Positions 1-34,336 of a stretch of DNA of 64,000 nt are shown piece after piece (positions within the stretch are counted from its first letter, which is position 1; every line of letters begins with the position of its first letter). Origin of the DNA: Sphaerotilus natans (lineage in GTDB: Bacteria > Pseudomonadota > Gammaproteobacteria > Burkholderiales > Burkholderiaceae_C); the NCBI RefSeq assembly GCF_900156335.1, contig NZ_FTMZ01000008.1, positions 62,001 to 126,000 on the forward strand, written 5' to 3'. A model generated the notes under the pieces. It was not told the DNA's origin. It worked only from the letters and a program-made list of their open reading frames with translations, and did no database searches. Made by a program: the position numbers and the translations under genes.

Positions 1-2096
1 AGATAGTTCAGCAGGCTGCGGTGCGTGACCTCGACGCCCTTGGGCCGACCGGTCGAGCCGGAGGTGTACAGCACATAGGCCAGGTGATCGGGACCGGCCG
101 GCAGGCCGGGCGGCGCGGTCGGCAGACCGTCGAGCCGGTCGATCTCGATGATCCGCTCCGCCCCCGGCGGACAGGCCTCGCGCAGGCGGGAGTGCGTCAG
201 CAGCACCTGAAGCCGCGCCTCCTCGCGCATCTGCAGCAGGCGTGCAGGCGGATGGGCCGGGTCCAGCGGCAGCCAGGCCCCGCCGGCCTTCAGGATGGCC
301 AGCAGGCCGACGGGCAGATCGGTCGTGCGCTCCACGCACAGCCCGACAGCCACCTCGGGGCCGACGCCAGCGGCGCGCAGCACCGCCGCCAGCCGGTCTG
401 ACCGCTCCTCCAGCGCCTGGTAGGACAGCGTCCCCTGGGTATCGCGGGCGGCGATGGCCTGCGGCGTGCGCCGGGTCTGGGCGTGGAGGCGCTGATGCAG
501 CGTCGAGCCGTCGGCCGCAGCGGCGAAGACGGTGGCGGTGTCGTTCCAGTCGTGCAGCAGCGTGCGGCGTTCGCTCTCGCCGAGCAGCGGCAGTTGGCCC
601 ACCGGCAGGTGCGGCGTGGCCACCATGCCCTCCAGCAGGCGCTGGTAGTGTCCGGCCATGCGCTCGATCGTGGCCGGCTCGAACAGGTCGCTGGCCCAGT
701 TCCAGGCGGGGGTCAAGGCCTGTTCGTCCTCCCAGACCGTCAGCGTCAGCTCGAACTTGGCCGCGTGGCGCGTCGATTCGAGCGGGCTGAAACGGGCCGG
801 CCCGAGCTTCAGCGTCTCGCGCGGCGTGTTCTGCAGCACGAACAGGACCTGGAACAGCGGGCTGAAGGCCAGCTGGCGCTCGGGCTGGAGCGCCTCGACG
901 ATCCGCTCGAAGGGCACGGCCTGGTGCTCGAAGGCGTCCAGCGTGGTGCGGCGCACCCGCGCCAGCAGCGTCGGCGTGTCCGGATCGTCCGACAGGTCGT
1001 GACGCAGCACCAGGGTGTTGACGAAGAAGCCCACCAGCGGCTCCAGCTCGGTCTGCGGCCGGTTGGCCACCGGCGTGCCGATGCACAGATCTTCCTGGCG
1101 GGTGTGGCGCATCAGCAGCACCGCGAAGGCGGCCTGCAGCAGCATGAACAGGGTCACCCCCTGTGCCTGTGCCAGCCGGCGCAGTTCCGTGGCCAGCGCG
1201 GGTGGCAGCGGGGCCAGCCGCCGCTCGCCGCGGTGGCTGGGCTGGGCGGGGCGCGGGTGGTCCGTCAGCAGCAGGGGGTGCGCGGGCACGCCGTCGAGCT
1301 GGCGGCGCCAGTAGGCGATCTGCCGTGTCAGTGCCGCCTCCTGCGCGGCATCGCGCTGCCAGAGCGCGACATCGGCGTACTGCAAGGGCAGCGGCGGCAG
1401 CGTGGCGCCGGCGTACAGCGTCGTCAGCTCGTGCGTCAGCACCCCGATCGACCAGCCGTCGGAGATGGCATGGTGCATCGTCACGAACAGCGCATGCGCT
1501 TCGGTGTCCAGCCGCACCAGCCGGACGCACCACAGCGGACCGCGCGCCAGATCGAAGACCTGGGCAGCCTCGGCATCGGCCAGGGCCTGCAGCGCGGCCT
1601 CACGCTTGTGCTCCGGAAGACCCGACAAGTCGGTGTGCTGCAACGCCAGCGAGGGCGGCAGAATGTGCTGGTGCGGGCCGCTTCCGTCATCGGGGAAGCA
1701 GGTGCGCAGCACCTCGTGCCGGCGCTCGATCTCGCGCCAGGCGGCCTCCAGGGCATCCACGTCGAGCGGCCCGTGCAGCCGCAGGGCCAGCGCGATGTTG
1801 TAGGTCGCACCGGGACCGTCGAGCTGGTCAAGGAACCACAGGCGCTGCTGGGACCACGACAGCGGCAGCCGCGGCGGACGGGGCGGCGCCACGATGGCCA
1901 GCCCGGTCGCGGCCGGCGCGGCATGTCGGCGCAGGAATTCGATCAGCCCAGGCTTGTGCGCCCGCAGCCGGGCGATCAGCTCCGGCGGCAGCCGGCCGGC
2001 CGGGCCGTTGACGCGCAGTGCCTCGCCCTCAAGCGACAACCGGATGTCGCGTGCGGCCAGATCGGCCACCAGATCCAGGACATCGCTCGTGCTCAT
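1..2096 (-). CDS. NRPS 'E' (docking-C-A..., truncated by window edge)
   Basis: This is the last assembly-line gene in view; about 698 codons are present and the 3' end lies outside the window. The first ~55 residues resemble a TubC-type N-terminal docking domain. A condensation domain follows, with the opening LSWSQQRLWFL near residue 80 and the catalytic HHAISDGW near residue 208, the pattern of ordinary L-accepting C domains. An adenylation domain starts near residue 545 and is cut just after core motif A3 (LYTSGSTGRPKG), so its specificity pocket is not visible. The start codon overlaps the stop of the upstream hybrid gene (ATGA at 2093-2096), which implies translational coupling. The protein should take the peptidyl chain from the PCP at the C-terminus of protein D and add one amino acid. 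Whether it also carries the release domain cannot be seen. Confidence 0.95.
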   Translation of the reverse strand, partial: MSTSDVLDLVADLAARDIRLSLEGEALRVNGPAGRLPPELIARLRAHKPGLIEFLRRHAAPAATGLAIVAPPRPPRLPLSWSQQRLWFLDQLDGPGATYNIALALRLHGPLDVDALEAAWREIERRHEVLRTCFPDDGSGPHQHILPPSLALQHTDLSGLPEHKREAALQALADAEAAQVFDLARGPLWCVRLVRLDTEAHALFVTMHHAISDGWSIGVLTHELTTLYAGATLPPLPLQYADVALWQRDAAQEAALTRQIAYWRRQLDGVPAHPLLLTDHPRPAQPSHRGERRLAPLPPALATELRRLAQAQGVTLFMLLQAAFAVLLMRHTRQEDLCIGTPVANRPQTELEPLVGFFVNTLVLRHDLSDDPDTPTLLARVRRTTLDAFEHQAVPFERIVEALQPERQLAFSPLFQVLFVLQNTPRETLKLGPARFSPLESTRHAAKFELTLTVWEDEQALTPAWNWASDLFEPATIERMAGHYQRLLEGMVATPHLPVGQLPLLGESERRTLLHDWNDTATVFAAAADGSTLHQRLHAQTRRTPQAIAARDTQGTLSYQALEERSDRLAAVLRAAGVGPEVAVGLCVERTTDLPVGLLAILKAGGAWLPLDPAHPPARLLQMREEARLQVLLTHSRLREACPPGAERIIEIDRLDGLPTAPPGLPAGPDHLAYVLYTSGSTGRPKGVEVTHRSLLNY

Positions 2097-34336: not shown

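Follow-up and report, generated by a model that had tools for sequence, protein, structure and literature searches.

The megasynthase genes at the left end of the window (the whole stretch of 64,000 nucleotides analyzed here, C33:62001-126000 of a genome, G000, of 4.63 Mb in 57 contigs) raise the question of what their assembly line is, whether it is whole, and whether it has a known counterpart. By its 16S gene, which is 95.9% identical to the best match among plasmid-collection records, Mitsuaria sp. 7, the bacterium is probably a member of the Burkholderiales close to Mitsuaria. Five ORFs, all on the minus strand, make up a cis-AT PKS-NRPS line at window positions 1-34336, the fifth of them crossing the left edge (Table 1). 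The KS, AT, KR, cMT, DH, C, A, and PCP domains exceed the Pfam cut-offs; since the key domains score above curated cut-offs, most with E-values below 1e-10, chance is excluded as the source of the matches. Judged by its domains, the line is PKS-NRPS by every testable feature: Pfam recognizes KS-AT-ACP modules with integrated AT, and C-A-PCP modules and a terminal TE (PF00975, 1.4e-29) share one line with them. The module order written down in an earlier note on this DNA is the one given by Pfam, with the same domains in the same sequence on one strand, and the start of PKS1, called ACP-like there, is a carrier domain. No ligase is fused to this starter ACP, either in G000 or in a second species, G009. 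The domains likewise support the product class proposed in the note: a peptide with one ketide unit inserted in it, bearing a methyl-branched acyl chain. Both NRPS1 and the terminal NRPS open with TubC_N docking domains, and the true start of the hybrid enzyme probably lies inside the called ORF. The cluster spans 15 genes over about 53 kb; its left end, outside the window, is a diaminobutyrate-transaminase-like (ectB-like) gene, and its right end is a type II thioesterase gene that reaches window position 46416.

Table 1. Features of the cluster and its right flank, in window positions; percentages are identities to G009.
Feature	Position	Strand	Evidence
Terminal NRPS, 2471 aa: TubC_N-C-A-PCP-E-C-PCP-TE; code DGPKVGQVA; N-terminal part in window	1..2096, on to C33:56681	-	Pfam, NCBIfam
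Hybrid enzyme, 2672 aa: KS-AT-KR-ACP-C-A-PCP; code DIWESTADD	2093..10111	-	Pfam, code extraction, PDB search
NRPS1, 2267 aa: TubC_N-C-A-PCP-C-A-PCP; codes DVWYLGGIC, DGFTVVGVG	10020..16823	-	Pfam, code extraction
PKS2, 1962 aa: KS-AT-cMT-KR-ACP	16849..22737	-	Pfam
PKS1, 3862 aa: loading ACP / KS-AT-KR-ACP / KS-AT-DH-cMT-KR-ACP	22748..34336	-	Pfam, motifs
KR of PKS1 module 2, predicted redox-dead: Ser to Ala, Tyr to His (His3587)	23483..24022	-	Motif comparison
N-terminal loading ACP of PKS1, residues 31-92, GLGS serine motif, without fused ligase domain	34061..34246	-	PF00550 3.5e-7, 30.8 bits, cut-off 20.8; kept in G009
Lipoprotein P0001, no assigned family	34407..35513	-	74-75%
DUF697 protein	35668..36225	-	Pfam; 81%
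Peripla_BP_6-like protein, 700 aa, long C-terminal extension	36627..38729	-	Pfam; 75%
SPFH/Band 7 protein	38644..39624	-	Pfam; 77%
Cyclic peptide export ABC transporter	39621..41288	-	TIGR01194 315.7 bits, cut-off 286.2
Cyclic peptide export ABC transporter	41285..42931	-	TIGR01194 321.5 bits, cut-off 286.2
Sensor histidine kinase	43295..44779	+	Profile match; 51%
Response regulator	44791..45483	-	Profile match; 79%
Type II thioesterase	45574..46416	-	PF00975 1e-36; 64%
Phosphopantetheinyl transferase, adjoins cluster	46474..47250	-	Profile match

The ORF cut by the edge has 3041 codons from its first GTG and overlaps the hybrid gene; a start consistent with TubC_N lies at C33:64096 and yields the enzyme of Table 1. 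Pfam finds in it three condensation-family stretches, one A domain, two carrier domains, and one TE. The second condensation-type domain carries the epimerase mark TIGR01720, and in the last module PF00668 is directly followed by PF00550 and then by the TE, with no A domain. The release module had been placed beyond the left edge, and its thioesterase is indeed found on the adjoining part of the contig. The expectation of one C-A-PCP per amino acid breaks down at this terminal module. The same A-less end is seen in G009 by alignment and in a relative from G056 that is 38% identical. In a class-level search of 229 genomes, eight, including our own, had matches with E<=1e-90; one match runs through the C domain into PCP and TE (G726, residues 121-1162), and the remaining matches listed stop within the C domain or at its end.

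We favor charging of the last PCP in trans, by an A or A-T protein whose gene lies elsewhere, in keeping with the SyrE/SyrB1 logic; the alternative is loading from the neighboring A domain. SyrE offers a precedent for trans feeding of a C-T-TE module (PMC8949500). Among the cluster genes scanned (Pfam, profile matches on contig C33), there is no stand-alone A-T protein. The genome has 23 AMP-binding matches, and five are on this contig: four belong to the line, and the fifth (window 52164-53843) is an enzyme outside the cluster, beside acyl-CoA dehydrogenase and biotin carboxylase genes in a catabolic-looking operon. The check for an A-T partner took in six of the 23 matches; the other 17 are in open frames of 452-733 aa. 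An A-PCP-hexapeptide protein of 1380 aa is coded outside the cluster (contig C7, L088:1139-5281) with no sign of a link to it; its role as the trans partner is possible but unsupported. If instead the terminal NRPS used its one A domain to charge both the PCP next to it and the last one, the peptide would end in a D-Y/L-Y pair. This we regard as a tentative option, with the odds against it: no further A domain is recognized, either in the same enzyme or encoded by a cluster gene of its own, and the last C motif (HHLLSDG) and the last PCP motif (GGHSL) are intact in both species, but PCP, E, and C domains intervene between this A domain and the last PCP, which counts against double charging. 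Multiple loading by one A domain is known from yersiniabactin. The same intact motifs, arguing for a loaded acceptor, make it unlikely that the last C-PCP adds no residue and either passes the peptide on or has its C domain join a free amine or hydroxyl before TE release, although the A domain is absent from both species and from the 38% relative with the identical domain layout.

The other departure from the simple scheme is in PKS1. In the KR of its second module, Ala and His replace the Ser and Tyr that the other three KRs retain, in both species alike (eight KRs, four per species). Since the catalytic Ser and Tyr are lost, the module probably reads KS-AT-DH-cMT-KR0-ACP. The DH and cMT motifs beside it look intact in both species, and a conserved DH next to a dead KR fits poorly with strict colinearity. 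With this KR0, full processing of the second ketide is doubtful.

To read the building blocks, A-domain code positions were set with a stretch of GrsA. All four codes are identical between G000 and G009. In the terminal code, Lys278 occurs as in Asp/Asn codes, which is a weak hint. Position 517 is the usual lysine and was assumed for NRPS1-A1 from the NGK motif. With this K added, the first NRPS1 code is the one listed for Met in PMC12283262. The second NRPS1 code and the terminal code, with K added, were not found as strings in open PMC papers. The code of the hybrid enzyme is one residue off DIWELTADD, which we take to be the code for Dab; the latter string had no match in the main texts of three papers. 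In a PDB search with the hybrid A domain, PvdL matched in one stretch with 393 bits, no single LgrA domain shown exceeded 311 bits, and 8xjz_C reached 449 bits summed over two stretches that are not shown apart; the matched PvdL domain is presumably the Dab one. The Dab-like code occurs in the same cluster as the EctB-type transaminase (TIGR02407, 645.8 bits, cut-off 552.2), whose longest ORF overlaps the end of the terminal NRPS. An origin of this gene in ectoine synthesis is weakly rejected, as no ectoine synthase (EctC) match was found in either of the two genomes, G000 and G009, with the control also silent in all 14 genomes. As for the AT domains, AT2 and AT4 have HAFH/RAFH motifs, AT1 and AT3 have VAAH, and AT substrates are commonly read from such motifs; the cMT domains argue for malonate as the substrate.

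Is the line maintained elsewhere? In a search with the terminal NRPS of 60 genomes including our own (12 others were congeneric, two of these less than 85% complete), G009 alone had a close, near full-length match (71% over residues 6-2471). The complete set of 15 genes, ectB through type II thioesterase, is at C2:71465-124973 of this genome. Almost the full length of each megasynthase aligns with its G000 counterpart, at about 70-71% identity for the terminal NRPS, 86% for the hybrid enzyme, 91% for NRPS1, 64% for PKS2, and 70% for PKS1, with the same A codes, KR0, and A-less end by alignment and motif comparison, and with matching active-site motifs at the compared sites. The ectB-like protein is 81% identical, the exporters 79 and 77%, and the nine-gene accessory block is inverted relative to G000.

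Unlike the chromosomal copy in G000, the G009 cluster is carried by a 230-kb contig that also codes for a Rep_3-type initiator. The Rep_3 match is just over the threshold (24.2 bits, cut-off 22.4), IS630-like DNA is near it, and the G+C content in 20-kb bins is 0.61-0.67 outside the cluster vs 0.69-0.72 at 80-140 kb. Based on these three features, the contig is probably a plasmid; a test for circularity by overlap of the contig ends gave a negative result. Beside the cluster, the same contig codes for a second NRPS, whose open frame has 7059 aa (L071, G009:C2:128001-147000). The phosphopantetheinyl transferase that adjoins the cluster in our genome has no tblastn match on this contig.

Two other congeneric genomes, G006 and G001, have an empty site: a match to C33:114232 is followed after 0.3 kb by a match to C33:55308 (93% and 85-91% identity), and therefore 58.9 kb are absent there. 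On the G009 chromosome, matches to C33:109644 and C33:55363 are only 1.3 kb apart; hence 54 kb, the cluster with its phosphopantetheinyl transferase, are absent at that site. The DNA next to the cluster at window 47656-52004, with a PLP enzyme and an FGE/DinB protein that we take to be EgtB-like, is present at this chromosomal site of G009 without the cluster and missing there in G006 and G001. The site adjoins the AMP-binding, acyl-CoA dehydrogenase, and biotin carboxylase genes, and a repeat search within each of the two cluster-end regions gave short imperfect matches only.

The two copies have not diverged evenly. By Nei-Gojobori estimates between the G000 and G009 cluster genes, dS is 0.20 for NRPS1 and 0.30 for the hybrid gene, about half of that for the other three megasynthases (0.57 for PKS1, 0.58 for PKS2, and 0.54 for the terminal NRPS), and it is 0.45-1.13 for nine other genes (ectB, TEII, RR, HK, ABC1, ABC2, SPFH, PBP, and lipoprotein). 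Within the hybrid gene, the first 250 codons have a pS of 0.13, and the value climbs to 0.38 near the A domain. The pattern suggests recombination in the middle of the line, in a tract comprising NRPS1 and most of the hybrid enzyme; the alternative is that this stretch changes more slowly for another reason.

Several accessory genes travel with the line. The two TIGR01194 transporters score above the curated cut-off for cyclic-peptide exporters, in line with the predicted export of a peptide-like product. The stretch at window 34407-42931, with the lipoprotein, DUF697, Peripla_BP-like, and SPFH proteins and both exporters, accompanies the megasynthases in two species and is inverted in one; in our view, such a set of accessory genes is unusual next to a PKS-NRPS line. 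The lipoprotein has no Pfam, NCBIfam, or PHROG match, and besides G000 and G009, distant relatives (27-39% over partial length) were found in six of the 297 family genomes searched; the mean pLDDT of its predicted structure, 58, was too low for a fold search. The Peripla_BP gene failed as a tracer of related clusters, as 287 of the 399 genomes of the order match it at E<=1e-20, and the matches listed, our own gene excepted, cover the N-terminal part alone (up to residue 445 of 700, 24-33%).

Taken together, we put at about 0.7 the probability that this is a complete, mobile cluster whose product, an acylated and probably cyclic hybrid peptide, is exported and is assembled as follows. An enzyme separate from PKS1 would load an acyl starter onto the N-terminal ACP, and three cis-AT modules would extend it. 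The first would leave a beta-hydroxy group; the second, an alpha-C-methylated, possibly gem-dimethylated unit that retains its beta-ketone since the KR is dead, and therefore its DH may idle; the third, an alpha-methyl beta-hydroxy unit. The docking domains would hand the chain on for addition of Met and then of a residue with no code assignment, followed by a single ketide that is reduced to the beta-hydroxy level (statine-like), by L-Dab supplied by the EctB-like transaminase of the cluster, and by a residue epimerized to D in the terminal NRPS. The TE would release or cyclize the product, perhaps through the amine of Dab or a hydroxyl of one of the ketides. Export would fall to the two transporters.

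On this reading, the cluster is ordinary in kind, with two conserved oddities, the A-less end and KR0. These could also be taken, along with the missing starter ligase, as marks of a decaying remnant. Such decay is highly improbable: the same apparent defects and identical A codes recur in the second species, both keep the megasynthase frames open, and dN is lower than dS (0.048/0.20 for NRPS1, 0.203/0.57 for PKS1). The cluster may also be a scaffold for new chemistry, mobile on plasmids, with a function for both non-colinear features: DH-cMT-KR0 would give a C-methylated beta-keto unit in the lipid part, and one A domain would serve two carriers across the epimerase, so that a D-Y/L-Y pair follows a statine-Dab core; we consider this rather unlikely. 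Still less probable is a published pathway missed by the open library and the collections. In a collection of 72,556 plasmids, from which very near genomes may be omitted, the terminal NRPS matched 2162 records and the hybrid enzyme 3344, all below 60% protein identity, and among the open PMC papers listed, none was recognized as describing the cluster. The claim that the line has no known counterpart agrees with this literature and with the plasmid collection as searched with two of the five megasynthases, and the cluster is undescribed as far as tested. The preferred reading, a complete and mobile cluster, makes it a clean cloning target, as it is complete and well bounded and shows signs of maintenance, being on a plasmid-like contig in one species and chromosomal in another, with empty sites elsewhere. 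The A-less end and the KR0 module allow direct tests of non-colinear assembly lines, and the two species form a natural pair, with an apparently recombined middle, useful for understanding subunit exchange.

How does the line compare with known systems? Among genome stretches, no named relative is close (none in 43 stretches, two in 110 at 28-33%). Chitinimides came up as a lead and were set aside as presumably of another kind. An NRPS-PKS line on contig C254 of G056, from another family of the same order, ends in an enzyme with the same TubC_N-C-A-PCP-E-C-PCP-TE layout (38% identity over residues 5-2456), but its first enzyme reads KS-AT-ACP-aminotransferase-C-A-PCP, followed by C-A-PCP-C-A-PCP-KS-AT-KR; the stretch with this line (L028/L029) has a G+C content of 60%. 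The literature comparison drew on open PMC papers, among them PMC12283262, PMC8949500, PMC4906002, and PMC13126170. In the syringomycin system, the gene for SyrB1 (A-T) lies upstream of syrE, and SyrB2 and SyrC act as helpers, while no such gene was recognized among the cluster genes scanned here; because a SyrB1-type partner is absent from the cluster, we do not file the line as SyrE-type. The line also differs from SyrE in being PKS-NRPS and in having an E domain before the A-less module. The terminal C-T-TE without an A domain, however, is the same in SyrE (PMC8949500) and in the line reported here.
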